A stretch of DNA of 64,000 bases. Source: Dyadobacter sp. CECT 9275. GTDB lineage: Bacteria > Bacteroidota > Bacteroidia > Cytophagales > Spirosomataceae. The stretch is from positions 1,922,001 through 1,986,000 of the forward strand of contig NZ_CAJRAF010000002.1 in the NCBI RefSeq assembly GCF_907164905.1, written 5' to 3'. Position 1 is the first letter of the stretch. Each line of letters opens with the position of its first letter. Below the pieces are notes generated by a model. The model made no database searches, was not told the origin of the DNA, and worked only from the letters and a program-made list of their open reading frames with translations. The translations under genes were made by a program, and so were the position numbers. This document shows, in pieces, positions 25,320 through 42,683 of this stretch.

Positions 25320-25331
25320 TGACCAAAGTCA
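25320..25331 (+). promoter_or_regulatory. Crp/Fnr-type operator candidate upstream of ccoI
   Basis: TGACCAAAGTCA fits the palindrome TGACnnnnGTCA found three times in this respiration island. Its centre (25325.5) lies 51.5 bases before a CAATTTTG -7-like element at 25377. Confidence 0.6.
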
Positions 25332-25376
25332 CAATTTTTTCCGTCCGTCGTCATCTTTCCTGGTGGCTTTTTCCGG

Positions 25377-25384
25377 CAATTTTG
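25377..25384 (+). promoter_or_regulatory. -7-like promoter element upstream of ccoI
   Basis: CAATTTTG is one base off TAnnTTTG and lies 83 bases before the ccoI start. Weak on its own; supported by the operator spacing. Confidence 0.4.
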
Positions 25385-25467
25385 AACCGATATTCAAACT
25401 GAGTGTCAGATTCATTTCATCTTTTGCTCTAGGAAACCAGCAACACCATCAAAGACCAGCCCCAGCC

Positions 25468-27915
25468 ATGGAAACTGACGAATATATATTGCCGGACAAA
25501 ACGCAAACCTCACACCATTGCTATCACTGCGGTGAAGAAATAAAGGAGGAGGTCATCACTTTGGACGAACATCAGTTTTGCTGCCAGGGCTGTTCTTTGG
25601 TTTATGATGTTTTAAAAGAAAACGACCTTTGCCGTTATTACACCATTGATGGCTCCAATGGCAACTCCCCGGACGGATCCTACTTCCAGGGTAAATATGA
25701 TTACCTCGATTTGCCCGAAATCTCAGCCAAAATACTTGAGTTCAGTGATGGGAAATTATCCCGGGTCAACTGGTATATCCCCAAAATGCATTGCAGTTCG
25801 TGTATCTGGCTGCTGGAACAGTTGCACAGGCTCAACCCTGCCATCCGGAGTTCCGTTGTTAATTTCCCGGAAAAAAAGGTCAGGATTACCTTTGACGCTA
25901 CCAGTGTACAGCTAAGCCAGCTCGCCGCACTCATTACAAGTATCGGATACGAACCCTACCTCAGCCTGAACGACATTGAAGGCAAACAGCTCAGCCGATG
26001 GAACAGGACCCGCTTGTATAAAATAGGAATTGCTGGCTTTGCCTTTGGGAATATCATGATGATGAGTTTTCCTGAATACTTCCATTTAGGAAAAAATGGT
26101 ACCGACCACCAGCTGAAAATGATGTTCAGCGTGCTGAATATTGCATTGAGTATCCCGGTATTTTTTTATTGTGCTGCCGACTTTTTCAAATCTGCCTGGA
26201 CCGCCCTGAAAGCCAGGTACTTTAATATTGAAGCCCCTATTGCACTGGCCCTGAGCTGTGTTTTCCTGACCAGCCTTTACCAGGTCGCCACCGGAACCGG
26301 CCCGGGTTATTTTGATTCGCTGGCAGGTGCTGTCTTTTTTATGCTGATCGGCCGGTATTTTCAGGATAAAACCTATGCTGGTATATCCTTTAACCGCGAC
26401 TACAAATCGTATTTCCCTGTTGCCATTTCGGTACTAAAAGACGGACAGGAACAACGGACACCCATTACAGAGCTAAAACAAAATGATCGGATGCTGGTTC
26501 GTAACGAGGAGCTTATACCGGCAGATTCGGTTTTGTGCAGCCCGAGAGCCATGATCAATTACAGCTTTGTTTCCGGCGAAGCAGAACCTGTATTAAGGCA
26601 GAAAGGAGATACCATTTATGCCGGCGGAAAACAGAACGGCCCTTCCATTGAGCTGGAAGTATTACGCCCTGTGGCCCAGGGATATCTTACGCAACTATGG
26701 AATAATGATACTTTCACCAAAGAAAAGGAGGATCAGCAGCAGACACTGGCAGCACGCATCAACAGGTATTTTTCGGCAGCGGTACTGTCACTGGCTGTAA
26801 TTACCTTTCTTGTCTGGCTTTTGATTGCACAGAAACCAGAAACAGCCTTTAACGCTTTCACTACCATTTTGCTAGTGGCATGCCCGTGTGCTCTGTTGTT
26901 GTCTTCTACGTTCACCAATGGCAACCTGCTCGGCCTCTTTGGAAAACACCGTTTTTATCCCAAAAACGCGCATGCCATTGAAAGGCTATCGCATATCAAC
27001 ACCATCGTATTTGACAAAACCGGTACCATTACGCTCGGAGATGAAGCGGAGGTAAATTATGTGGGAAGAGAGTTGTCAGACACTGAATTGGTAATGATAA
27101 AAACGATAGCTTCCCAATCTTCACATCCCCTCAGCCGGACCCTGGCGAAAAGCTTGCCGCACGTCCAGGCCAGCAAACGGGTCCTGAGTGAATATGAAGA
27201 AACCGGAGGTGCGGGAATTAAAGCATTATGGGGAAAGACCGAGGTAAAGCTGGGTTCGGCCAGGTGGGTGGGAGCAGATACTGACAAACTCCCGGGAACC
27301 AACTCCCTGGTGTATGTATCCATTGACGGCCAGGTTCCGGGATATTTTACATTTAAAAGTAAATATCGCCCCGAACTCGCGGAAACAATCAGTGTATTAC
27401 AAAAATCGGGATATGAAACTTACTTGTTATCAGGTGATAAACCAACGGATAAAGAATTCCTGAAAACCATTTTTCAGGACGAAACCAGAATTTTTTTCGA
27501 ACAGAAGCCCGAAGAAAAGCTTAGGTTCATTGAACAGCTTCAAAAAAACAGGAATGCCAGGGTACTCATGGTAGGCGACGGGCTGAATGATGCCGGGGCG
27601 CTTAAACAAAGTGACGTCGGCCTTGCCGTATCCGATGATATCAACAATTTCTCTCCTTCCTGCGATGCCATCGTGGAAGGCGCACAATTAGCTGCCCTGC
27701 CCGGTTATATCAATCTGGCAAGATCCGGGCAACGTACCATTAAGATCAGCTTTGCCATTTCGCTGTTGTACAATGCCATAGGTGTTTCCTTCGCCGTTGC
27801 CGGAAAACTGTCTCCGGTGATCGCGGCCATACTGATGCCCGTCAGTTCTATTTCTATTGTTGCATTTACGACGCTCGCCACCAACCTTGCCGCGCGCAAA
27901 TGGATAAAAAACTGA
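25468..27915 (+). CDS. ccoI: Copper-translocating P1B-type ATPase CcoI (FixI)
   Basis: 815 residues from ATG 25468 (METDEYILPD); an in-frame extension to 25240 overlaps the operator and inverted repeat and is rejected. The N-terminal zinc-ribbon-like region (CYHCGEE, CCQGCSLVYD) is typical of CcoI. An HMA domain with MHCSSCIWLLEQL follows. Then come eight helices, including the CPC metal channel (VACPCALLLSS), phosphorylation motif FDKTGTI, the HP motif (SSHPLSRTL), and MVGDGLNDAGAL. In the inner membrane it supplies copper for the CuB site of cbb3 oxidase. First gene of the cbb3 island, with ccoS 95 bases downstream. Confidence 0.92.
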   Translation: METDEYILPDKTQTSHHCYHCGEEIKEEVITLDEHQFCCQGCSLVYDVLKENDLCRYYTIDGSNGNSPDGSYFQGKYDYLDLPEISAKILEFSDGKLSRVNWYIPKMHCSSCIWLLEQLHRLNPAIRSSVVNFPEKKVRITFDATSVQLSQLAALITSIGYEPYLSLNDIEGKQLSRWNRTRLYKIGIAGFAFGNIMMMSFPEYFHLGKNGTDHQLKMMFSVLNIALSIPVFFYCAADFFKSAWTALKARYFNIEAPIALALSCVFLTSLYQVATGTGPGYFDSLAGAVFFMLIGRYFQDKTYAGISFNRDYKSYFPVAISVLKDGQEQRTPITELKQNDRMLVRNEELIPADSVLCSPRAMINYSFVSGEAEPVLRQKGDTIYAGGKQNGPSIELEVLRPVAQGYLTQLWNNDTFTKEKEDQQQTLAARINRYFSAAVLSLAVITFLVWLLIAQKPETAFNAFTTILLVACPCALLLSSTFTNGNLLGLFGKHRFYPKNAHAIERLSHINTIVFDKTGTITLGDEAEVNYVGRELSDTELVMIKTIASQSSHPLSRTLAKSLPHVQASKRVLSEYEETGGAGIKALWGKTEVKLGSARWVGADTDKLPGTNSLVYVSIDGQVPGYFTFKSKYRPELAETISVLQKSGYETYLLSGDKPTDKEFLKTIFQDETRIFFEQKPEEKLRFIEQLQKNRNARVLMVGDGLNDAGALKQSDVGLAVSDDINNFSPSCDAIVEGAQLAALPGYINLARSGQRTIKISFAISLLYNAIGVSFAVAGKLSPVIAAILMPVSSISIVAFTTLATNLAARKWIKN

Positions 27916-27924
27916 CCAATGTCA
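27913..27924 (+). promoter_or_regulatory. Crp/Fnr-type operator candidate upstream of ccoS-ccoNO
   Basis: TGACCAATGTCA overlaps the ccoI stop codon (TGA, 27913-27915) and fits TGACnnnnGTCA. Its centre (27918.5) lies 52.5 bases before a TAGTTTTG -7 element. Confidence 0.65.
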
Positions 27925-27970
27925 TATTTGAACACAGGTAGTTATCATGCGCCGGAGCAACTTCGGACAG

Positions 27971-27978
27971 TAGTTTTG
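27971..27978 (+). promoter_or_regulatory. -7 promoter element upstream of ccoS
   Basis: TAGTTTTG matches TAnnTTTG exactly and is 33 bases before the ccoS start. Confidence 0.55.
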
Positions 27979-28010
27979 AACCATCAAACAATCCAAGAAA
28001 ATCACTAGCT

Positions 28011-28154: not shown

Positions 28155-28235
28155 TTGTCCTTTTTGACCTCCTTCCTGTCCACCATTCCAATCATACCTA
28201 TTACCCATATTTATTCACCATTCTTTCTCAATATT

Positions 28236-30389
28236 ATGTCTAACATTCCCCATCCCAATATCGCATCGGTAGAGCTGGATGAGTTCGAGTATGACAACAA
28301 GATCGTCCGGGATTTTGCAATTGCCACGATTTTGTTCGGTCTGATCGGTATGCTCGTTGGATTACTGGCAGCGTTTCAGCTGGTTTTCCCCAACCTCAAT
28401 TTCGACCTCCCCTACACCACTTTCAGCCGCATCAGGCCACTGCATACCAACGCCGTTATTTTTGCCTTTGTGGGCAACGGCTTTTTTACAGGTCTCTATT
28501 ACTCAGTACCCCGGGTACTCCGCACACCTGTGTGGAGCCCAGTGTTGAGCCGTTTTCACTTCTGGGCCTGGCAGCTGATCATCCTCGGTGCAGCCATCAC
28601 CTTACCTATGGGTTTTACTTCATCCAAGGAATATGCGGAGCTTGAATGGCCCTTTGACATTGCCATTGCAGTTGTTTGGGTTTCTGCCCTTGTTAATCTG
28701 ATCATGACCACTATTAACCGCCGGGTGGAACACATTTATGCAGCTGTGTGGTTTTACATTGCTTCATTTGTAACAGTGGCTATGCTTCATGTGGTTAACA
28801 GCATAGAACTGCCCATTTCTTTCCTGAAAAGTTATCCGGTTTACGCTGGCGTGCAGGATGCGCTCGTGCAGTGGTGGTACGGACATAATGCAGTCGCATT
28901 TTTTCTGACCACCCCCTATCTCGGGCTGATGTACTATTTTCTCCCGAAAGCTGCCAACAGGCCCATTTACTCCTACCGCCTGTCCATTGTTCACTTCTGG
29001 GCATTGATATTTATCTATATCTGGGCTGGGCCACACCATTTGCTTTACACTGCACTTCCCGAATGGGCACAAACACTCGGTACCATATTTTCAATTATGC
29101 TGATCGCGCCTTCCTGGGGAGGTATGATGAACGGGCTGATGACGCTGCGCGGGGCCTGGGATAAAGTGCGGGAAGACGTGGTGCTAAAATTTATGGTGGT
29201 TGCAATTACCGCGTACGGTATGGCCACTTTTGAAGGCCCCATGCTTTCGCTAAAAAATGTAAACGCTATTGCACACTACACCGACTGGATTGTCGCACAC
29301 GTTCACGTAGGTGCGCTGGGCTGGAACGGCTTCCTTACTTTTGGAATACTGTATTGGCTTTTCCCACGCCTATATAACCGACCGTTATATTCTCAGAAAG
29401 CTGCCAACTTTCACTTCTGGATCGGTACGTTAGGTATCCTGTTTTACACCATTCCTATGTATTGGGCCGGTTGGGTACAAAGTTCGATGTGGAAAGAATT
29501 CACGCAGGAAGGCTTGCTCAAATACCCCAACTTCCTCGAAACTGTTACGCAGCTAGCCCCGCTATATTTTATGCGCAGTGTGGGAGGTACCCTTTACCTG
29601 ATTGGTTTTGTGGTGATGATCTATAACCTGTGGATGACTGCCCTGAACGGCAAACTTGTTGCGACGGAAACCGCCAAGGCTATGCCGCTGAGCGCAATCT
29701 GGCAGGCGTCCAAAAGTGAATACTGGCACCGTCGCTTTCTGGAACGTAAACCGATGGCACTTACAATTTTCTCTCTGATCGCCGTAGCCATTGGTGGTAT
29801 GATTGAAATGATTCCTACGTTTTTGGTAGAGTCCAATATTCCAACCATTGCCAGCGTGAAACCCTATACTCCGCTCGAACTCCAGGGAAGGGACATCTAC
29901 GTACGGGAAGGCTGTTATGTGTGCCATACGCAAATGATCCGTCCGTTCCGCTCCGAAATCGAAAGATACGGCGACTACTCCAAATCAGGAGAGTTTGTAT
30001 ACGACCACCCTCACCAATGGGGTTCAAAACGCACCGGTCCGGACCTGCACCGTCTCGGAGGCAAATATCCCGACTCGTGGCATTACAATCACATGGAAGA
30101 CCCTACTACCATGTCGCCCGGTTCCATTATGCCAAGATATGGCTGGTTATTGGAAGATGACCTGGATACAACCACCACAGGAGCGAAAATCAGAGCGATG
30201 CAGCAACTGGGCGTCCCCTACGAAGAAGGATATGACAAAATTGCCAATGTACAGTTGCATAAGCAGGCCAAGGAAATCCAGGCAAGGCTGAAACAGAGTG
30301 GAATAAAAACCAGCGAAGACAAGGAGATCATTGCACTCATTGCCTATCTGCAGCGGCTCGGAACCGACATAAAAGCTGAGAAAAACTAG
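28236..30389 (+). CDS. ccoNO: cbb3-type cytochrome oxidase, fused subunits I and II (CcoN-CcoO)
   Basis: 717 residues from ATG 28236 (MSNIPHPNIASVELDEF). Residues about 1-500 are CcoN, with 12 helices and the haem/CuB histidines in HTNAVIFAFVGNGFF, WWYGHNAVAFF, AGPHHLLYT and DWIVAHVHVGALGWN. After a linker and a further helix (about 515-535), the CcoO part carries one c-type haem site, CYVCHTQM at 560-567, and GSIMPRYGWL with the distal Met. In proteobacteria CcoN and CcoO are separate proteins; a fused form is a recognised Bacteroidota variant. Terminal oxidase with high oxygen affinity, inner membrane. Confidence 0.95.
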   Translation: MSNIPHPNIASVELDEFEYDNKIVRDFAIATILFGLIGMLVGLLAAFQLVFPNLNFDLPYTTFSRIRPLHTNAVIFAFVGNGFFTGLYYSVPRVLRTPVWSPVLSRFHFWAWQLIILGAAITLPMGFTSSKEYAELEWPFDIAIAVVWVSALVNLIMTTINRRVEHIYAAVWFYIASFVTVAMLHVVNSIELPISFLKSYPVYAGVQDALVQWWYGHNAVAFFLTTPYLGLMYYFLPKAANRPIYSYRLSIVHFWALIFIYIWAGPHHLLYTALPEWAQTLGTIFSIMLIAPSWGGMMNGLMTLRGAWDKVREDVVLKFMVVAITAYGMATFEGPMLSLKNVNAIAHYTDWIVAHVHVGALGWNGFLTFGILYWLFPRLYNRPLYSQKAANFHFWIGTLGILFYTIPMYWAGWVQSSMWKEFTQEGLLKYPNFLETVTQLAPLYFMRSVGGTLYLIGFVVMIYNLWMTALNGKLVATETAKAMPLSAIWQASKSEYWHRRFLERKPMALTIFSLIAVAIGGMIEMIPTFLVESNIPTIASVKPYTPLELQGRDIYVREGCYVCHTQMIRPFRSEIERYGDYSKSGEFVYDHPHQWGSKRTGPDLHRLGGKYPDSWHYNHMEDPTTMSPGSIMPRYGWLLEDDLDTTTTGAKIRAMQQLGVPYEEGYDKIANVQLHKQAKEIQARLKQSGIKTSEDKEIIALIAYLQRLGTDIKAEKN

Positions 30390-30467: not shown

Positions 30468-31493
30468 ATGAAATTCAGAAATTATTTAGAAAGCATAGCG
30501 GGAGTGGGGATCTTCCCACTCGTCTCGCTGATCATATTTTTTGTCTTTTTTCTCCTGCTGCTGGTTTATGTGATCGGGATTGATAAAAAGAGCCTGAACA
30601 ATATGAAGAATATTCCGCTTAATGACGGAAGCATCAGAAAAACCGTATTATCTCTTGTGTTCCTTTTCATCGGCACCATCCCGGCCTGGGCACAGGAACC
30701 GGAAAAAGGAAGAGCCATCACCGGAACCGACCTCCTACTTTATGCCCTGCTGGCGATCCTGGTTTTTCTCATTCTCCTGGTTTCAATATTATTGTTTGAA
30801 GCCCTGGCCATTCTGAAACAGTACAATACCAAATCCACCTCCGGGGCAGCGTCCCAATCTCTGTTCAGCAGCAACTGGTGGAATAAATTCCGGGGTATTA
30901 ACGTCGCGCTCGGAGAGGAAGACAAGCTCCTCATTCAGGGACACGATTACGATGGTATTCATGAACTGGACAACCGGATGCCGCCATGGCTGCAGTCCCT
31001 CTTTATAATGACCATCATTTTCGGAGTTGTGTATGGTATCTACTATTTCGGCGGTATCGGAGATATGCAGATAGCCGAACTAGACAAGGAAATTGCACAG
31101 GCAGAAACTGAAAAGAAAATTTATATGGAAAAAGTAGGCGCCAGCATGGATGAAAATACCGTTACCATCCTGACCGACGCCGCAGGACTTGGCCAGGGAA
31201 AAACCATTTTCACCGAAAAATGCGCTGCTTGTCACGGGCCAGAAGCCGGTGGCGCGGTAGGCCCCAACCTCACCGACGCATACTGGCTGCATGGTGGCGG
31301 TATCAAAAATGTCTTTAAAGTAATTAAGTATGGCGTACCCGAAAAAGGCATGATCTCATGGGAAAAACAGCTGTCTCCAACGGATATCCGGAAAGTGGCC
31401 AGTTATGTTTTGTCTTTGAAAGGAACCAAACCTGCCAATCCTAAAGAGCCACAGGGAGAGCTGGTGGCGGATGAGAATGTGGCTGTGAAGTAA
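30468..31493 (+). CDS. ccoP: cbb3 oxidase CcoQ-CcoP fused subunit, mono-haem
   Basis: 341 residues. Residues 1-55 look like a complete CcoQ (one helix, then DKKSLNNMKNIPLNDG). Residues about 60-77 look like a signal peptide ending in AWAQ (SLVFLFIGTIPAWAQ), now internal. CcoP follows: helix about 88-112, a cytoplasmic N-terminal domain with WWNKFRG and DNRMPPWLQSLFIMT, and a second helix. One haem-c site CAACHG is at 252-257, with GMISWEKQLSP providing the axial Met. Typical proteobacterial CcoP has two haems, so this is a reduced form. It passes electrons to CcoNO. 78 bases after ccoNO. Confidence 0.88.
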   Translation: MKFRNYLESIAGVGIFPLVSLIIFFVFFLLLLVYVIGIDKKSLNNMKNIPLNDGSIRKTVLSLVFLFIGTIPAWAQEPEKGRAITGTDLLLYALLAILVFLILLVSILLFEALAILKQYNTKSTSGAASQSLFSSNWWNKFRGINVALGEEDKLLIQGHDYDGIHELDNRMPPWLQSLFIMTIIFGVVYGIYYFGGIGDMQIAELDKEIAQAETEKKIYMEKVGASMDENTVTILTDAAGLGQGKTIFTEKCAACHGPEAGGAVGPNLTDAYWLHGGGIKNVFKVIKYGVPEKGMISWEKQLSPTDIRKVASYVLSLKGTKPANPKEPQGELVADENVAVK

Positions 31494-31601
31494 AGGCTGT
31501 TAGCTGTTAGAGCAAATCTGACCTTTACCTAAGCTACTCTTTTATTACGCTTTTTTGAAAGGCATTGTGATTACAAAAGCCGTTTACCAACGGCACATAC
31601 T

Positions 31602-33014
31602 ATGAATACTTCAAACACTTCCCTTTTTGAACCCGACGACACCTTCCGCGATCATTTCAGCGCGGTGAATGAGGATGGAAAAAGGAACTGGTTTTATCCC
31701 CAGAAACCCAGCGGCAAATGGCATAACCGAAGAGTATGGTTTACGATCCTGATTCTGACGTTGCTTTTTGTTACCCCGTTTCTGAAATTAAACGGCCAAC
31801 CCCTGCTGCTGCTGAATGTGATTGACCGGAAATTCATCATTTTCGGACTGTTCATAGGGCCGCAGGACTACTGGCTTTTCGGGCTTACGATGTTATCCTT
31901 TATGTTATTCATCGTACTCTTCACCACTATTTTCGGAAGGCTGTGGTGTGGCTGGGCCTGTCCTCAGACGGTGTTTATGGAAATGGTTTTCAGAAAAATC
32001 GAGTATGCCATCGAAGGAGACGCCGGCAAACAAAAACTGTTAAACAAAGCCCCCTGGACTTCTGACAAAATATTAAAGAAGGGGTTGAAATACACTGTGT
32101 TTCTGACGGTTTCCTTTCTGATCGCCAACCTGCTGTTGTCTTATGTCCTGGGTGTGGACGAGCTCGCGAAAATTATCCGGGAACCTATTCAGGAACATTT
32201 ACCGCTTTTTACGGGAATCGTAATTTTCACCCTGGTATTTTATTTCAATTTTGCCTGGCTGCGCGACCAGGCCTGTACCGTGGTGTGCCCATACGGGCGC
32301 CTTCAGGGGGTACTGATGGACCGAAATTCCATTGTGGTTGCCTATGATTACAAAAGAGGGGAACCCAGGGAAAAGCTGCACAAGGGGCAAAGCCGCAGTG
32401 CCGGTGACTGCATCAGTTGCTTTCAATGCGTAAATGTATGTCCCACCGGGATCGACATCCGCAATGGTACCCAAATGGAATGTGTAAACTGCACGGCATG
32501 TATTGACGCCTGCGACAACATCATGGACAAAATCGGGTTTGATAAAGGGCTCATCCGATATACCTCTGAAAATGCGATTGTAAACGGAACCAATAAGCTG
32601 ATCACCAAAAGGGTAATAGCCTATATTGCGGTACTGGTATTGCTCTGGTCTGTACTGGCCTATACCATCGCAGTCAGGACAGATACGCAAACCACCCTGT
32701 TCAGGGCACCGGGAAGCCAGTACATTGAAAACAACGACGGTACGGTAAGCAATCTGTATACGTTCAAAATTTTCAACAAGACCAACCGTCTTGTGCATCC
32801 TGAAATCCGCATTGAAGCGGCTGGCGGAAGACTACAGTTTGCCGGAAATCCCGATCTCACGCTGGAAGGTGCAGGGATGTCCGAAGGTACCGTCTTTATC
32901 ATCATGCCAAAAAGCCAGCTAAAAAAACGAAAAACAAAACTGCAGTTATCGGTATATCAGGGAAATCAGAAACTCGAAACTTTTGAAACCACGTTTGTGG
33001 CGCCGGAAGAATAA
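31602..33014 (+). CDS. ccoG: cbb3 oxidase accessory protein CcoG (FixG/RdxA)
   Basis: 470 residues. Helices occur at about 45-62, 86-110, 160-185, 200-218 and 330-350. The WCGWACPQTVFME motif is near 116-128. Two ferredoxin-like [4Fe-4S] sets follow (CISCFQCVNVCP and CVNCTACIDACD at about 268-305), then an immunoglobulin-like C-terminal domain (about 380-470). CcoG is a membrane Cu(II) reductase for oxidase copper delivery in studied species. It starts 108 bases after ccoQP and 33 bases before ccoH. Confidence 0.95.
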   Translation: MNTSNTSLFEPDDTFRDHFSAVNEDGKRNWFYPQKPSGKWHNRRVWFTILILTLLFVTPFLKLNGQPLLLLNVIDRKFIIFGLFIGPQDYWLFGLTMLSFMLFIVLFTTIFGRLWCGWACPQTVFMEMVFRKIEYAIEGDAGKQKLLNKAPWTSDKILKKGLKYTVFLTVSFLIANLLLSYVLGVDELAKIIREPIQEHLPLFTGIVIFTLVFYFNFAWLRDQACTVVCPYGRLQGVLMDRNSIVVAYDYKRGEPREKLHKGQSRSAGDCISCFQCVNVCPTGIDIRNGTQMECVNCTACIDACDNIMDKIGFDKGLIRYTSENAIVNGTNKLITKRVIAYIAVLVLLWSVLAYTIAVRTDTQTTLFRAPGSQYIENNDGTVSNLYTFKIFNKTNRLVHPEIRIEAAGGRLQFAGNPDLTLEGAGMSEGTVFIIMPKSQLKKRKTKLQLSVYQGNQKLETFETTFVAPEE

Positions 33015-33047
33015 CACAGTAGAAAAAATATTAAGCAAACGTATCAG

Positions 33048-33500
33048 ATGAAAACTTTAAAACTAAACTGGGGAGCGGGTATCGCAGTTCTTTACATGGG
33101 ATTTGTGGCGATGATCGTCCTGCTGGTAGTGATGAGCATGCGCCAGAAAATTGATCTGGTTACGGATGAATATTATGCAGAGGAGCTACTGTTTCAGGGC
33201 AAAATTGACAAAATCAAAAGAGCCAAAGCATTATCCGAACCTTTAAAATGGGAGTTAACCGACGATGCCATCGTGATTCGGTACCCCGGTAATTTAGCAG
33301 CAAACACGTTGTCAGGCTCTGTCAGGTTATACTGTGCCTCCGACAACAAAAAGGACAGAAGTTTTGCCGTCAACGCTGAAAACCACCTGCAGGTTATCCC
33401 GCTCAGCAGCATTCCCGAAGGCCGCTTCGCACTTCAGATCGACTGGAAACAGGGAGAAAATCTTTATTGGGATGAAGGTGTCGTTGTAATTAAGCCGTAA
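33048..33500 (+). CDS. ccoH: cbb3 assembly protein CcoH/FixH
   Basis: 150 residues. One N-terminal helix (GIAVLYMGFVAMIVLLVVMS), then the FixH hallmark VTDEYYAEELLFQGKIDKI, and a small periplasmic beta domain to the end. FixH proteins associate with the oxidase during assembly and may help CcoI-dependent copper loading. Between ccoG (33 bases) and the SafE-like gene (26 bases), so surely co-transcribed. Confidence 0.9.
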   Translation: MKTLKLNWGAGIAVLYMGFVAMIVLLVVMSMRQKIDLVTDEYYAEELLFQGKIDKIKRAKALSEPLKWELTDDAIVIRYPGNLAANTLSGSVRLYCASDNKKDRSFAVNAENHLQVIPLSSIPEGRFALQIDWKQGENLYWDEGVVVIKP

Positions 33501-33526
33501 TACGGGCCAGTAACCCGCCAATTCTG

Positions 33527-34249
33527 ATGAATTCTTCACTTCCCTTACTGGCTTTATCCATGGGGCTTCTCAGCAGCTTCCATTGTATCGGCATGTGCGG
33601 TCCTATTGCCCTTGCGCTACCGGTTCATCGGGGGAATAAATTTCAGCAGTTTGCCGGGCTGACTGCCTACAACACCGGTCGGGCCATAACCTATTCCGCA
33701 TTGGGCATCCTCACGGGAACCCTGGCTACCTCACTGGTCTGGATCGGCTATTTCAGGTACATGTCGGTGGGTGCCGGGGTACTTCTCCTCTGCTACGTTC
33801 TGTATTCTTCCCGCCTCGAAAAGCATTTCAACCCGCCATTGTTCTGGCAAAAACAGATCAATCGCCTTAAAAGCGGTATGAAAGCAATGCTGGGCAGTAA
33901 ATCATTTGGCGGCTGGTTTCTATTGGGAAGCCTCAACGGACTGCTTCCATGTGGAATGGTATATCTGGCGCTCGTCAGCTCCATGGCGACCGGAAGTATC
34001 TCCGGCTCCGCCACTTTTATGCTGCTCTTTGGGGTAGGTACATGGCCTATGATGATGCTGACCGGATATTTTAAAAATCTGATAACACCCGCCCTTCGCA
34101 CCCGGATGCGGCGCTTAGTCCCTGTCATGCTCTCCGTGGCGGGTATCTGGCTGGTAGTAAGAGGCCTGGCCATTGAATACCCCACCACCACAAAAAACAA
34201 CAGCATACCTGTTTGTCATTCCTCGGCGGCTGAAATCGGGAATAAGTAA
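33527..34249 (+). CDS. SafE/DsbD_2-type membrane protein in cbb3 operon
   Basis: 240 residues, six predicted helices. The first helix ends in FHCIGMCGPIALAL, a Cys-x3-Cys pattern with preceding His. A LNGLLPCGMVYLAL motif with another Cys lies near 141-154. Pfam-type DsbD_2 / 'sulfite exporter TauE/SafE' proteins with these Cys pairs are often found after ccoGH in Bacteroidota. The likely role is metal or thiol handling in oxidase assembly rather than sulfite export; this is inference from context. Confidence 0.8.
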   Translation: MNSSLPLLALSMGLLSSFHCIGMCGPIALALPVHRGNKFQQFAGLTAYNTGRAITYSALGILTGTLATSLVWIGYFRYMSVGAGVLLLCYVLYSSRLEKHFNPPLFWQKQINRLKSGMKAMLGSKSFGGWFLLGSLNGLLPCGMVYLALVSSMATGSISGSATFMLLFGVGTWPMMMLTGYFKNLITPALRTRMRRLVPVMLSVAGIWLVVRGLAIEYPTTTKNNSIPVCHSSAAEIGNK

Positions 34250-34259
34250 GTTTTTTTCG

Positions 34260-34271
34260 TGACGAAGGTCA
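34260..34271 (+). promoter_or_regulatory. Crp/Fnr-type operator candidate upstream of hemN
   Basis: TGACGAAGGTCA fits TGACnnnnGTCA. Its centre (34265.5) is 29.5 bases before the TAGTTTTG element. With a start point about five bases past that element, the site would be near -41.5, the class II activator position. Confidence 0.65.
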
Positions 34272-34294: not shown

Positions 34295-34302
34295 TAGTTT
34301 TG
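34295..34302 (+). promoter_or_regulatory. -7 promoter element for hemN
   Basis: TAGTTTTG, an exact TAnnTTTG match, 35 bases before the hemN start. It has no good -33 TTTG partner, as expected for an activator-dependent promoter. Confidence 0.55.
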
Positions 34303-34336
34303 GGTAAATATCTCATGCATCAAAATATTTATTCTT

Positions 34337-35701
34337 ATGGATAAGGATTTGTTGTTTAAATACAATACCCCCGGACCGCGATACACCAGCTATCCAACGG
34401 TACCCTATTGGCAGAAAACACCCCCGACCGAACAAAAGTGGAAAGAGCTTGTGCAGGATGCTTTTCTGATGTCCAACCAAAAAGAAGGTATCAGTTTATA
34501 TATTCATTTGCCTTTCTGCGAAAGCCTGTGTACCTATTGCGGCTGTAACACCAGAATTACCATTAACCATGCAGTGGAAAAAAAGTACATCAACGCCCTT
34601 CTTAAAGAATGGAAAATGTACTTAGCCGTCTTTGGTGATGAAAAACCCATTATCCGGGAACTACACCTGGGAGGTGGTACCCCAACATTCTTCAGCCCTG
34701 AAAATCTTAAAATATTAATAAACAACCTCTTAAAGGATTGCAAAATACATCCCGACGCGCAATTCGGTTTTGAGGCCCACCCCGGAAACACAACCGACGA
34801 ACATTTGCAGGCGCTGTATGAAGTCGGTTTTCGGAGGATCAGTATCGGCGTGCAGGACTTCAATCCGATTGTACTGGCAGTAATCAACCGACATCAGACA
34901 TTTGAGCAAGTGAGTCATCTGACTTCCAAGGCCAGGGAAATCGGGTATGATTCGGTCAACTATGACATTGTTTATGGCTTGCCCATGCAGAAAAGCTGTT
35001 ACATGATGGAAACCATGATGAAAGTAGTACGTCTGCGCCCTGACAGGATCGCCTTTTACAGTTACGCTCACGTTCCGTGGATCAAACCCGGCCAGAGAAG
35101 TTATACCGAAAAAGACCTGCCTGATGCCGACAAAAAAATGGCCATATACGAAACAGGGAGAAATGCGCTGGAAATGGCAGGTTACAAAGACATTGGTATG
35201 GACCATTTTGCGCTGGAAACGGACGGCCTTTACCGGGCCAATCAAAACGGGAAACTGCACCGGAATTTTATGGGATATACCGATACACACACGCAATTAC
35301 TCATCGGACTTGGGGCGTCGTCCATCAGCGATACCTGGTGGGGATATGTCCAGAACGAAAAGAAGATTGAGGATTACTACCAACAGATTGAAGAAGGCCT
35401 TCTCCCCATTGCCCGCGGACACGAGCTTACCCGGGAAGACCTGATTATCAGAAAACACATCTTGCGCCTGATGACGCAAATGGAAACCTCATGGAGTAAC
35501 CCAAATGAAGTATGCGAAGATTTTTACAGGGGACTTCAGAGACTGGATGAACTCGAATTTGACGAACTGATAACCATGGAACCCTATCATCTGAAAATTA
35601 CAGAAAAAGGGAAGGCCTTTATACGAAACGTATGTATGGCATTTGACGCCAGGCTCTGGGCAGACCTACCGCAGACCAGTCTCTTCAGCCAAACGGTTTA
35701 A
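34337..35701 (+). CDS. hemN: Oxygen-independent coproporphyrinogen III oxidase HemN
   Basis: 454 residues, full HemN length. N terminus YNTPGPRYTSYPTVPYW is the HemN (not HemW) signature. The radical-SAM motif CESLCTYCGCN (C-x3-C-x2-C, plus the fourth HemN Cys) is near residue 62. LHLGGGTPTFFS follows, and GIGVQDFNP-type and YGLP segments. It decarboxylates coproporphyrinogen III without O2 to support haem synthesis when oxygen is low. Own promoter with a Crp/Fnr-like box, next to the cbb3 genes that need haem. Confidence 0.95.
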   Translation: MDKDLLFKYNTPGPRYTSYPTVPYWQKTPPTEQKWKELVQDAFLMSNQKEGISLYIHLPFCESLCTYCGCNTRITINHAVEKKYINALLKEWKMYLAVFGDEKPIIRELHLGGGTPTFFSPENLKILINNLLKDCKIHPDAQFGFEAHPGNTTDEHLQALYEVGFRRISIGVQDFNPIVLAVINRHQTFEQVSHLTSKAREIGYDSVNYDIVYGLPMQKSCYMMETMMKVVRLRPDRIAFYSYAHVPWIKPGQRSYTEKDLPDADKKMAIYETGRNALEMAGYKDIGMDHFALETDGLYRANQNGKLHRNFMGYTDTHTQLLIGLGASSISDTWWGYVQNEKKIEDYYQQIEEGLLPIARGHELTREDLIIRKHILRLMTQMETSWSNPNEVCEDFYRGLQRLDELEFDELITMEPYHLKITEKGKAFIRNVCMAFDARLWADLPQTSLFSQTV

Positions 35702-35829: not shown

Positions 35830-37104
35830 ATGTTTGAAACGTTATTATTAAAACATACGAAAGAAATGACACGGCATATTGAAATGCTGGACGCCCTGTT
35901 TAAGCATGCAACAGAGGGAATTGTGGTAGTGAACAAAGACGGGGTCATTGTAATGCTCAACCCTAAAGCCAAGGAGTTGTTTGGTTATTCGGATAAGGAA
36001 CTCATCGGAAGGAAAATAGAAACGCTCATTCCCCAGAGGCTCGCCGGGCACCACGTACATTACAGGGATACCTATTTCGAATCGCCGAAGGCACGCGGGA
36101 TGGGCCATGCAATGGACCTGTTCGCCAGAAGAAGCGACGGTACCGAATTCCCGGTTGAAGTAAGCCTTAGCCCTTTCACAACCAGCGAAGGGGAGTTTGT
36201 TGTAAGTTTTGTGATTGATATTACCGACCGGAAGAAACAGGAGAACAGGATCAGGGAAGCCAATCAGGAAATACAAAAATTAAACGAAGAACTGGAGGAA
36301 CGTGTGGTACAACGTACCGAAGAACTTGCCAAAGCAATTAGAAAAGTGGAACAATCGCAGGAAGAGGTAATGCGTGCCCTGAAAAAAGAACGGGAACTGA
36401 ACAATATGAAGAGCCAGTTTGTTACCATTGCCTCACATGAGTTCAGGACACCGCTGGCTACCATCCTCTCATCAGCGTCTCTCATCGGCAGGTATTCAAG
36501 GAGTGAGGAAGAAGACAAGCGGCAGAAACACGTATTAAGGATTAAATCAGCCGTTACCAACCTCACCGAAATCCTGAACGACTTCCTGTCCATTGGCAAG
36601 CTGGAAGAAGGCAGGGTGCACAGTGTACCCGTAGCAACTGACCTGCTCGAATTTTGCGGAGGACTCACTGAGGAAATAAAAGCACTATGTAAGGAAAGCC
36701 AGCAGATCGAATTCATTTACAAGGGTTTAAGTGAAGTATGGCTCGACAAGCAACTCCTGCGTAATGTACTTTTCAATCTGCTTTCCAATGCGATCAAATA
36801 CTCGGAATCCGGCAAAAAAATCTTTTTCAGGGTTCAGTCCAGCGCAACATCCGTGAACATTGAAGTCGAGGATCAGGGCATTGGCATACCGGAGGCCGAT
36901 CAGACGCACATTTTCGACCGCTTTTACAGAGCCAAAAATGCCGGAAATGCGCAAGGGACAGGTCTGGGCTTAAACATTGTGCAAAATTACGTGGAGCTGA
37001 TGACAGGCCAGATATCCTTCAAAAGTGAGATTGGAAAGGGAACCACTTTTTCTATTCACATTCCCAATCAGGTACCCTCCGAATCCAAAGACAGTGCCAT
37101 TTAA
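35830..37104 (+). CDS. Soluble PAS-domain sensor histidine kinase
   Basis: 424 residues with no membrane helix, so cytosolic. PAS domain at about 18-135 (GIVVVNKDGVIVMLNPKA and ARRSDGTEFPVEVSLSP). A coiled coil at about 140-195 leads to the HisKA box with SHEFRTPLAT (H203). The ATPase domain has the N-box (NLLSNAIKYS, N320), G1 (DQGIGI, from D348) and G2 (GTGLGL, 377-382). Histidines H74, H75 and H77 lie on the PAS helix where FixL holds its haem histidine, and H75 has the same offset from the preceding proline. Many non-haem PAS domains also carry a histidine there, so haem sensing is unproven. 50 bases before the REC-Crp regulator, its evident partner. Confidence 0.9.
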   Translation: MFETLLLKHTKEMTRHIEMLDALFKHATEGIVVVNKDGVIVMLNPKAKELFGYSDKELIGRKIETLIPQRLAGHHVHYRDTYFESPKARGMGHAMDLFARRSDGTEFPVEVSLSPFTTSEGEFVVSFVIDITDRKKQENRIREANQEIQKLNEELEERVVQRTEELAKAIRKVEQSQEEVMRALKKERELNNMKSQFVTIASHEFRTPLATILSSASLIGRYSRSEEEDKRQKHVLRIKSAVTNLTEILNDFLSIGKLEEGRVHSVPVATDLLEFCGGLTEEIKALCKESQQIEFIYKGLSEVWLDKQLLRNVLFNLLSNAIKYSESGKKIFFRVQSSATSVNIEVEDQGIGIPEADQTHIFDRFYRAKNAGNAQGTGLGLNIVQNYVELMTGQISFKSEIGKGTTFSIHIPNQVPSESKDSAI

Positions 37105-37154
37105 ATTGTTACGGTCATTTACTAAAAATCAAACCCGGCTTAACGCTCTTACCA

Positions 37155-38219
37155 TTGGAAACCAAGAAAATTCTATTAATTGAAGATAACCCCGAAATGC
37201 GGGAAAACACAGCTGAGATTCTTGAGCTGGCCAACTATAAAGTCCTGACGGCTCAAAACGGAAAAGAAGGCTTACAGCTTGCGCATCAGGAAGATCCGGA
37301 CCTGATCATCTGTGATATTATGATGCCCGAACTGGACGGATACGGGGTCCTCCACATGCTTGGCAAAGACGACCTGACGGCCGGTATCCCTTTTGTTTTC
37401 CTGACCGCCAAAGCAGAGAAAGATGATTACCGCAAGGGCATGACAATGGGTGCGGACGACTACCTCACCAAGCCTTATGACGACGTAGAGCTTTTGAACG
37501 CTGTGGAAATGCGGCTAAAAAAAAGTGAAAGACTTAAAAAAAAATTCGATCGTACAGCAGAGGGCCTGGAAGATTTCATCAAGGAAGTAAAGTCATTTGA
37601 CCTGCTTGCCAAGCTGGCGGAAGATAAAAAAATAAAAACCCTGAAGAAGAAAGAAACGGTCTATACCGAAGGGAGTTATCCCTCCAATATCTTTTTTCTC
37701 CAAAAGGGAAAAGTGAAAGCGTACAAGTCTAACGACAGCGGCAAGGAATATATCACTGACCTGTACAAGGAGGGAGATTTTTTCGGGTATCTGGACCTTT
37801 TGCAGGGAGAGTCCTACCAGGAAACCGCTATAACGCTTGAGAATTCCGAAGTGGCCATGATACCCAAAGAGGACTTTTTCAATCTTTTGCAGGGCAACAG
37901 GGAGGTATCTTCCAAATTCATCAAAATGCTGTCCAACGAAATTAAAGATCGTGAAGAGAGGCTCCTTCAGCTGGCGTACAATTCGGTCCGGAAAAGGGTT
38001 GCCCAGGCACTGGTAATGCTCGTACAACGGTATCAGGAAGATCGTCAGAAGCCGTTTTCAATGTCCATCACGCGGGAGGATATTGCGTCCATGGCAGGTA
38101 CGGCCACAGAAACCGTGATCCGCACGTTGTCAGACTTTAAAGATGAAAAACTTGTGGATATGAAAGGAAGCCTGATCACCGTAATGGAATACGACAAGCT
38201 AGCCCGGATGCGGAATTAG
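37155..38219 (+). CDS. Response regulator with Crp/Fnr-type DNA-binding output domain
   Basis: 354 residues, TTG start. No in-frame ATG precedes the receiver, and the receiver begins at residue 4, so the TTG is required. Receiver (4-120): acidic E10/D11, phospho-acceptor D54, T84, K106. cNMP-binding-fold beta-roll at about 145-260 (VYTEGSYPSNIFFLQKGKVK, YKEGDFFGYLDLL). Winged helix at about 285-345, with recognition helix TATETVIRTLSDF (E319, R323, the E..R pair that contacts G:C in Crp/Fnr boxes). The only cysteine is C53, so no Fnr-like iron-sulfur cluster; signal input must come through phosphorylation. Likely controls the TGACnnnnGTCA sites nearby (inference). Confidence 0.88.
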   Translation: METKKILLIEDNPEMRENTAEILELANYKVLTAQNGKEGLQLAHQEDPDLIICDIMMPELDGYGVLHMLGKDDLTAGIPFVFLTAKAEKDDYRKGMTMGADDYLTKPYDDVELLNAVEMRLKKSERLKKKFDRTAEGLEDFIKEVKSFDLLAKLAEDKKIKTLKKKETVYTEGSYPSNIFFLQKGKVKAYKSNDSGKEYITDLYKEGDFFGYLDLLQGESYQETAITLENSEVAMIPKEDFFNLLQGNREVSSKFIKMLSNEIKDREERLLQLAYNSVRKRVAQALVMLVQRYQEDRQKPFSMSITREDIASMAGTATETVIRTLSDFKDEKLVDMKGSLITVMEYDKLARMRN

Positions 38220-41106: not shown

Positions 41107-41155
41107 AAATGCTGACATAACTTATGATATTCGTCATAAGTTTGTCAGCATTTTT
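41107..41155. terminator. Long hairpin between hldD and sufB
   Basis: A 20-bp stem with one bulged T (41107-41127 with 41134-41153) and a 6-base loop, ending in five T's. Works as an hldD terminator; A-rich and T-rich ends make it near-symmetric, so it could act on both strands. It lies 83 bases before the sufB start. Confidence 0.75.
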
Positions 41156-41237
41156 CCATATTTTTGGGGTTCTTATTAAACTCAATATCGTTTCCCGGTG
41201 TTACCCTACAGTGATACAGCGCGATAATCATTAGACT

Positions 41238-42683
41238 ATGAGCAAAGAAGAAGAATTGTTGGAAGAGATCACCAGTTCGGAATATAAATATGGTTTTGTA
41301 ACTGATATTGAAGCAGACGAAGCCCCTCCGGGACTGAGTGATGATATAGTCCGTTTCATTTCGGCCAAGAAAAACGAACCCGAATGGATGCTGCAATGGC
41401 GGCTGAAAGCCTATCATTACTGGCTTACGCTGGCAGAACCGAAGTGGCCGAATGTTCACTACCCCGAAATTGATTTTCAGGCTATAAAGTACTACTCTGC
41501 GCCTAAAAAGAAAAAGGCCGTTGACAGTATCGAAGATATTGATCCTGAATTACGTAATACTTTCGAGCGGCTGGGTATATCCCTCAATGAGCAAAAAAGG
41601 ATTTCCGGAATAGCAGTAGATGCTGTAATGGATTCAGAGTCGGTGTTTACCACCTTTAAAGGAACGCTGAAGGAAAAGGGAATTATTTTCTGTTCTATCA
41701 GCGAAGCCATCCGGGAACATCCCGACCTTGTAAAAAAATACCTGGGCTCCGTTGTCCCGGCGCGCGATAACTTTTATGCCGCGCTTAACTCGGCTGTATT
41801 CTCGGACGGATCTTTCGTATATATTCCAAAGGGAGTACGCTGCCCCATGGAACTTTCTACTTATTTCCGTATCAACGCGGCAGGGACAGGCCAGTTTGAA
41901 CGGACACTGATTGTAGCCGACACTGATAGCCATGTGAGTTATCTGGAAGGATGTACTGCTCCCATGCGTGACGAAAACCAGCTGCATGCAGCAGTAGTTG
42001 AAATTTTCGCCCATGAAAATGCCAATGTGAAGTATTCTACCGTGCAAAACTGGTATCCTGGCGACAAAGAAGGAAAAGGCGGGATTTATAATTTCGTTAC
42101 AAAACGCGGGATCTGCGACGGCGCCAACTCCAAGATTTCCTGGACACAGGTGGAAACGGGCTCTGCCATCACCTGGAAATATCCCTCGGTGATTCTGAAG
42201 GGCGACAATTCAATCGGTGAGTTTTATTCGGTTGCGGTTACCAACAACATGCAGCAGGCTGACACAGGCACCAAAATGATCCATATAGGCAAGAACACGA
42301 AAAGTCGTATTGTATCTAAAGGTATTTCTGCCGGTAAAAGCCAGAATTCGTACCGCGGTCTCGTTGAGGTGTTTAAACGCGCCGATAAAGCCAGAAACTT
42401 CTCACAATGTGATTCTCTGCTACTGGGTGATAAATGTGGTGCGCATACCTTCCCTTATATTGAGGTAAGCAACCCAACCGCCACCGTGGAACACGAAGCC
42501 ACTACTTCAAAAATTGGAGAAGACATACTTTTCTATTGTAACCAAAGAGGTATTCCTACGGAACAGGCTGTGGCGCTGATCGTTAACGGATATGCAAAAG
42601 AGGTGCTCAATCAGCTTCCCATGGAGTTTGCCGTAGAAGCACAGAAGCTGCTTGAGATCAGCCTTGAAGGCAGTGTAGGATAG
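41238..42683 (+). CDS. sufB: Fe-S cluster assembly scaffold protein SufB
   Basis: 481 residues. Motifs in order: [37 protein letters not shown], the [17 protein letters not shown] patch, YLEGCTAPM, and the C-terminal helical stretch [16 protein letters not shown]. The Cys in [19 protein letters not shown] (SufC-facing / cluster Cys) is present. SufB works with SufC and SufD to build Fe-S clusters in cytosol. Odd: no sufC or sufD follows; the next gene is an antiporter behind a terminator, so the suf set is split. Confidence 0.96.

Follow-up and report, generated by a model that had tools for sequence, protein, structure and literature searches.

In rhizobia, FixL-FixJ-FixK2 (Bradyrhizobium) and FixLJ-FixK (Sinorhizobium) combine a PAS kinase of the FixL/DosP type, a phospho-receiver and a Crp-type activator. 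The output domain of FixJ is of the NarL/LuxR type, and the targets of FixK2 include the cbb3 oxidase genes and hemN. Genes of the same two kinds are targets of Fnr, Anr and FnrN, which have a Crp fold, an E..R pair in the recognition helix, TGA-type half-sites and class II positioning. According to the sections cited here, the hFixL-FxkR-FixK pathway of Rhizobium leguminosarum contains three proteins, in which a low-oxygen kinase acts through a further regulator on a Crp-type protein at fixNOQP, and FixK is induced by the pathway (PMC7888657). When oxygen is limiting, the cbb3 and heme genes of Flavobacterium psychrophilum are strongly induced; the sections of that report used here do not name the regulator (PMC9723704). 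Searches of open-licence literature, judged by titles and the starts of abstracts, listed no description of a Crp-type regulator fused to a receiver (REC-Crp) that controls cbb3 in Bacteroidota, and no account of how Bacteroidota control their high-affinity oxidase. Here we analyzed 64,000 nucleotides from Dyadobacter sp. CECT 9275 (contig NZ_CAJRAF010000002.1, positions 1,922,001 to 1,986,000), referred to as the window. It contains a gene for a PAS histidine kinase followed by a gene for a REC-Crp protein, directly after hemN and the cbb3 genes.

Our analysis indicates that the pair is probably a two-component system widespread in its class of Bacteroidota. We consider it reasonably likely that a heme-PAS kinase phosphorylates REC-Crp, and that REC-Crp in turn activates hemN, ccoNO and ccoI through TGAY-N4-RTCA boxes. 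Unlike in FixLJ-FixK, the receiver and the Crp-type activator are one protein, so that the pathway would be shorter by one transcription step. It would consist of two proteins, compared to three in hFixL-FxkR-FixK. Comparison with related genomes supports the output side strongly and the sensor moderately.

The kinase gene is a 424-residue open reading frame (ORF) at 35830..37104 and begins 128 bases past the hemN stop codon. All features are given in window positions and are on the plus strand unless stated otherwise. A Pfam profile search locates PAS at residues 18-131 (35881-36222), HisKA at 193-261 (36406-36612) and HATPase_c at 306-413 (36745-37068). The putative phospho-acceptor H203 (codon 36436..36438) is in the sequence SHEFRTPL within HisKA. 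The regulator gene follows after a gap of 50 bases and is a 354-residue ORF with a TTG start (37155..38219). It contains Response_reg (PF00072; residues 6-118, 37170-37508; E-value 3.2e-29), cNMP_binding (PF00027; residues 161-247, 37635-37895; 9.2e-22) and the helix-turn-helix domain HTH_Crp_2 (PF13545; residues 280-352, 37992-38210; 2.2e-16).

The regulator was aligned with 12 relatives that are 42-55% identical to it. The receiver residues D11, D54 and K106 are invariant in the 13 proteins, as are C53, which adjoins the predicted phospho-acceptor D54 (codon 37314..37316), and E319 and R323 in the recognition helix (residues 318-330, 38106..38144). The protein therefore has the acidic pocket, acceptor Asp and Lys of a receiver, and the cNMP-binding fold followed by HTH_Crp of the Crp/Fnr family. 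C53 is its only Cys and lies within the receiver; 40 further aligned copies have 1-4 Cys each. A role of C53 as a redox switch was considered and is not claimed, because a Cys-Asp pair before MMP is common in receiver domains. The first-pass annotation had described the PAS kinase with H203, the D54 receiver fused to a cNMP fold and a winged helix, the single Cys incompatible with an Fnr iron-sulfur sensor, and the E319/R323 pair, and all of these agree with the ORFs, domains and translations. It had also called the kinase soluble, a description that reflects its domain content (PAS, HisKA and HATPase_c).

The regulator differs from each of the described activators. It lacks the N-terminal Cys cluster and central Cys that hold the iron-sulfur sensor of Fnr, Anr and FnrN, and carries a receiver in place of that sensor. 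In contrast to the NarL/LuxR-type output of FixJ, its output is cNMP_binding plus HTH_Crp, and Pfam reports no other output domain. FixK is a standalone Crp/Fnr protein without a Cys cluster, whereas this regulator is fused to a receiver; the NCBIfam FixK model gives 65.6 bits against a cut-off of 300. The AlphaFold model contains a barrel, a long helix and a winged helix (mean predicted local distance difference test score, pLDDT, 75). The arrangement of the domains in it is not reliable, with a predicted template modeling score of 0.40 and pLDDT below 50 at residues 126-149. The best 50 matches in a fold search with the model all have the Crp/Fnr fold. Among the best 60 of 288 PDB sequence matches, no best stretch spans the receiver and the Crp part together.

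Three boxes connect the regulator to its proposed targets. The window contains exactly three copies of TGACN4GTCA, at 25320, 27913 and 34260, in line with the three TGA-type boxes reported in the first-pass annotation. In the genome as a whole it is not enriched (78 matches versus 85 in the backward-read control). The 12-mer alone thus proves nothing and was rejected as proof of a regulon; its position and conservation carry the case. In related loci, TGAYN4RTCA recurs before hemN, ccoNO and ccoI, with variation in the four inner bases. The -7 element reported for Flavobacterium is TAnnTTTG at -12 to -5, according to the part of the study used here (PMC9723704). The hemN box TGACGAAGGTCA (34260..34271) is followed by a -7 element TAGTTTTG at 34295-34302 and a predicted +1 at 34307. 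It starts 35 bases before the -7 element, which places its center at -41.5. This distance is found in 20 of 21 boxes of relatives (23 loci, minus L041, whose identity is low, and L049, which lacks a box), the loci in this and the following box counts being related by descent and not independent trials.

The full boxes of ccoNO and ccoI are located about 22 bp further upstream than the -41.5 register. Box TGACCAATGTCA of ccoNO (27913..27924) precedes a half-site TCA at 27945-27947, a -7 element TAGTTTTG at 27971-27978 and a predicted +1 at 27983. Box TGACCAAAGTCA of ccoI (25320..25331) precedes a TCA at 25351-25353, a -7 element CAATTTTG at 25377-25384 and a predicted +1 at 25389. The distance from box to -7 element is 57 or 58 in 20 of 24 ccoNO boxes (28 loci; three have no box, and L038 was unscored with too little sequence after the box) and in 14 of 14 ccoI boxes. 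The ccoI set started from 22 loci, from which L056 (partial match) and L025, L032, L039, L041, L043, L044 and L063 (identity below 55%) were left out; of these low-identity loci, L032, L041, L044 and L063 have no box. Wherever the 57/58 spacing is present, the proximal TCA of the -41.5 register is present as well (20/20 for ccoNO, 14/14 for ccoI), whereas the distal TGA is found in only 7 and 3 of them, respectively. Both ccoNO and ccoI are therefore predicted to combine a complete site further upstream with a half-site that is conserved in the class II register.

The combination of box and -7 element was also counted in the window genome. A box followed by 22-24 bases and TAnnTTTG has 8 matches versus 0 in the backward-read control, and a box followed by 45-46 bases and YAnnTTTG has 10 versus 1. 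Of these 18 candidate sites, three are the cco and hemN boxes and one precedes sufB; the rest are candidates only. The fixed spacing and the conservation in relatives support the boxes as promoter elements. As in the FixLJ-FixK systems, Crp-type sites are thus positioned at an activating distance before cco genes and hemN.

The pair is common outside the window. Of 150 family genomes, 141 have a match to the regulator at E <= 1e-30. In a sample of 296 genomes from across the phylum, matches reach E <= 1e-40 in 49; 6 of these matches are partial (Crp part or receiver only), and the 43 genomes with a full REC-Crp all belong to the window's own class. The fusion is therefore an established family and not a peculiarity of the window. 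The counterpart of the regulator in D. koreensis is 88% identical to it. Of 40 family loci, the window's own among them, 39 (all but L044) encode a related kinase immediately before the regulator. The same holds for 73 of 80 named loci, a set in which contig ends truncate several loci. The pairing seen in the window is thereby borne out.

This pairing bears on the idea that the receiver serves as a dimerization module and that phosphorylation is not the switch. Some receiver-fused regulators do function without phosphorylation. Given the near-constant pairing with a kinase and the retention of D11, D54 and K106 among relatives of only 42-55% identity, we regard such orphan or promiscuous signaling as very improbable here, and favor phosphotransfer from the kinase.

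Linkage to the cbb3 genes is conserved as well. Among 20 diverse family loci, each 16-20 kb long, 13 contain at least one cco gene. The named loci contain one in 24 of 80 cases, and in 16 of 43 when only those with complete 10 kb flanks are counted. When the best copy per genome is considered, REC-Crp and FixO are within 15 kb of each other in 15 of the 38 phylum-sample genomes that have both, compared to about 0.25 expected by random placement, and within 40 kb in 18. Phyletic co-occurrence, a check that the first-pass annotation had suggested, gave no signal. Both are present in 38 genomes, REC-Crp only in 5, FixO only in 25 and neither in 5 (Fisher p = 0.73), on the assumption that the 66 genomes beyond the kinship-sorted listing lie outside the window's class.

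Which protein reads the boxes was examined through the other Crp proteins. The window genome encodes two more above the HTH_Crp_2 cut-off, one adjoining rhodanese- and TauE-like genes (L083) and one in L082, together with cNMP proteins that have no good HTH_Crp_2 match; gene labels in both loci were assigned by eye. The protein in L082 (G000:C2:1136001-1142000) is Cys-rich, is encoded next to a nosZ-like gene and has an ETVIR helix as in REC-Crp. The boxes could be read by one of these proteins, with the REC-Crp pair controlling something else. Outside the family, standalone Fnr-like proteins are indeed encoded beside cbb3 genes, and in two such loci (L177 and L178) ccoNO or ccoI is preceded by a box of this kind. 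As judged by eye, an N-terminal CxxC is absent from both further Crp proteins of the window genome. The sulfur-linked type has an Arg before the Glu of the helix (SREVISR), and boxes near sulfur genes have a different, extended motif, GTGACN4GTCAC.

Genomes with few Crp proteins are informative. Sulfur-linked Crp is matched at E <= 1e-10 in 35 of 46 family genomes, and for the nosZ-linked type, long matches (E <= 1e-26) that fall outside REC-Crp frames are found in 7 of 46, including the window's. REC-Crp is the sole protein above the HTH_Crp_2 cut-off in 4 of 22 genomes (G104, G108, G120 and G125), and only REC-Crp proteins exceed it in G076 and G032. G104, G120 and G125 have neither the sulfur-linked nor a full nosZ-linked Crp at E <= 1e-10. 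The cco promoters were read in G120 and G125 of the four; the G108 locus (L033) shows no cco gene. Boxes precede all three genes, hemN, ccoNO and ccoI, in G120 (L050), G125 (L052) and G076 (L047). The attribution to REC-Crp is strong but not proof, because other cNMP proteins could still read the boxes. We consider a different reader rather unlikely, and REC-Crp the better candidate.

The PAS domain of the kinase resembles known heme sensors. A PDB search gives 17 matching sequences at E <= 0.001. The top match is annotated as 'multi-sensor histidine kinase' (10jx), ranks 2-13 carry the names FixL, DosP or heme PAS sensor, and rank 14 is yddU, another name of DosP. In an ungapped alignment, H75 (codon 36052..36054) coincides with the His that ligates heme in FixL and DosP. 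The corresponding DosP residues, as given in the part of the study used here, include His77, with Met95 and Arg97 (PMC4263535). H75 is conserved while neighboring residues vary, in 37/38, 11/11 and 56/60 partner kinases. These three sets overlap; the set of 38 represents the family and includes the window's own copy, and the set of 60 remained after 13 of 73 partner kinases of named loci were dropped for lack of the anchoring Pro or an alignable PAS of this type. H93 was considered as the distal ligand and rejected, since it is not conserved in relatives. The window PAS most likely binds heme through H75, as judged from these comparisons.

The signal is less clear than the ligand. Oxygen is suggested by the likeness to FixL, and the window PAS has Met95 where FixL has its oxygen-gating Arg. 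Arg is found at this position in 11/38, 9/11 and 20/60 partner kinases, and in 25 of the 38 family kinases Met or Leu takes its place. These replacements, and the 13 of 73 partners without an alignable PAS of this type, would fit a genuine two-component system for cbb3 and hemN in which the PAS senses quinone, flavin redox state, nitric oxide or another ligand. The near-invariance of H75 amid varying neighbors argues against this, as does the fact that the nearest solved structures are largely heme oxygen sensors. Moreover, the FixL-type motif GIGRE is present in the PAS of 12 distant partners (5/11 and 7/60), and all five from the set of 11 are in loci with cco genes. A signal other than oxygen through heme thus appears unlikely, though less so than a different reader of the boxes. 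The first-pass designation as a FixL analogue holds for the FixL-like sensor, in view of the PDB matches and the related pairs; with Met in place of the gating Arg, oxygen sensing is what we infer from them. Some partner kinases (L188, L191, L193, L195, L201, L206, L208 and L212), from Pontibacter, Rufibacter, Adhaeribacter, Rhodocytophaga and others, have an N-terminal part that by eye is receiver-like rather than PAS.

Taken with the promoter geometry, these features suggest the following mechanism. The FixL/DosP-like PAS would bind heme via H75. In the absence of ligand (low oxygen, possibly another heme ligand or a redox cue), the kinase would phosphorylate D54, and the Crp part would then bind the TGAY-N4-RTCA boxes. 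At hemN, one dimer at -41.5 beside the -7 element TAnnTTTG would give class II activation. At ccoNO and ccoI, the protein would occupy the full box about 22 bp further upstream, together with the half-site in the -41.5 register. A single protein may in this way take the roles of FixJ, as phosphate receiver, and of FixK, as Crp-type activator.

Besides Met95, several observations weigh against this mechanism. There is no box before ccoNO in L032, L039 and L046 nor before hemN in L049, and 4 of 24 ccoNO boxes do not have the fixed spacing. The kinase gene has no TGAYN4RTCA box before it, either in the window or in the closest relatives; autoregulation of the pair was dropped for this reason, and some distant relatives do have such a box. 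FixO is not within 15 kb in 23 of 38 genomes, and 5 of 43 REC-Crp genomes have no FixO. Six genomes have 10-19 cNMP-domain matches each, with only 1-3 proteins above the HTH_Crp_2 cut-off. The control for H75 is weak: the window genome encodes 22 further PAS_9 domains, and although no His occupies this column in any of them, 15 are gapped there and 4 have a His within three columns.

Standalone proteins in other families point to a possible origin. Three of them, encoded beside cbb3 genes (L177, L178 and L179), are 38-41% identical to the Crp part, have a CxxC near the N-terminus and further Cys as in Fnr, and share the helix GTATETxIR. Their recognition helix is nearly identical to that of REC-Crp, and they differ from it in having no receiver and, in these loci, no matching kinase. 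The tandem arrangement recurs before ccoNO in L177, and L178 has a box upstream of ccoI; no such box was found before the cco genes of L179. A similar standalone protein is encoded in L184, a locus without a cco gene, and L025 contains both REC-Crp and a standalone Fnr-like regulator. A tree of the Crp parts gave no clear answer as to whether REC-Crp is one group: it has 2 changes, and REC-Crp fell on one side of a branch in 18% of the 200 bootstrap trees, with long branches meeting and one row, L130, probably in the wrong reading frame.

The first-pass annotation had regarded FixJ and FixK as merged. Their functions do appear to be combined in one protein, and there is no sign of a FixJ-FixK fusion by descent. 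Such a fusion is unsupported because FixJ output is of the NarL/LuxR type and the standalone Crp relatives are Cys-rich and Fnr-like. Derivation from Fnr, given the unsettled tree, is an inference. We tentatively suggest, as a possibility that falls somewhat short of probable, that in several Bacteroidota families an Fnr-type cbb3 switch was rewired. The iron-sulfur sensor would have been replaced by a receiver driven by a FixL-like heme kinase, giving two proteins that use the same kind of boxes in a module able to travel with the oxidase. A plasmid of Hymenobacter swuensis (NZ_CP007144.1, 1062-14102; L302) carries the pair with two truncated hemoglobins, a P-type ATPase, ccoS and ccoN, possibly a mobile oxidase-plus-switch module. 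On six plasmid records that hold most of REC-Crp, the protein is named 'response regulator' (five) or 'transcriptional regulator' (one).

The host genome is 7.2 Mb in size, and its near relatives are Dyadobacter. The genes upstream of the pair were confirmed as those of a cbb3 cluster and hemN, as first annotated. A ccoI-type copper P-ATPase gene (25468..27915) is followed by a fused ccoN-ccoO (28155..30389), by ccoP, ccoG, FixH and DsbD_2-family accessory genes (30468..34249) and by hemN (34337..35701), encoding oxygen-independent coproporphyrinogen III oxidase. The longest ccoI ORF starts at GTG 25240. Since the box at 25320 and the predicted promoter fall inside it, CcoI probably starts further down, at ATG 25468. 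Downstream of the regulator, lpxB is on the opposite strand.

Two other sets of boxes were found. A candidate site TGATATTCGTCA (41125..41136) with a -7 element TATTTTTG (41159-41166) precedes sufB (41238-42683); its attribution to REC-Crp is uncertain. In 17 loci examined, sufB was located in five, all of the same genus, and each has a box before it (L185 and L288 are very alike). These boxes are often a longer palindrome, TTATGAN6TCATAA, and the regulator reading them is likewise uncertain. Elsewhere in the window genome (L080; G000:C2:2375220-2392141), five extended boxes GTGACN4GTCAC are found in 17 kb, each upstream of an ORF: a peroxiredoxin, a cytochrome c, a 423-residue ORF, a TauE/SafE-type exporter and an AraC-type regulator. 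They are probably a separate sulfur-related regulon, which perhaps belongs to the Crp protein in L083.

As far as can be judged by sequence comparison, the pair probably turns on low-oxygen respiratory enzymes. The analysis provides a regulator pair together with its exact proposed target sites, predicted start sites and promoter geometry, all testable in a culturable genus. It would also provide a natural example of Crp/Fnr activators with different sensors, an iron-sulfur cluster in one and a phospho-receiver in the other, whose DNA sites stay alike.

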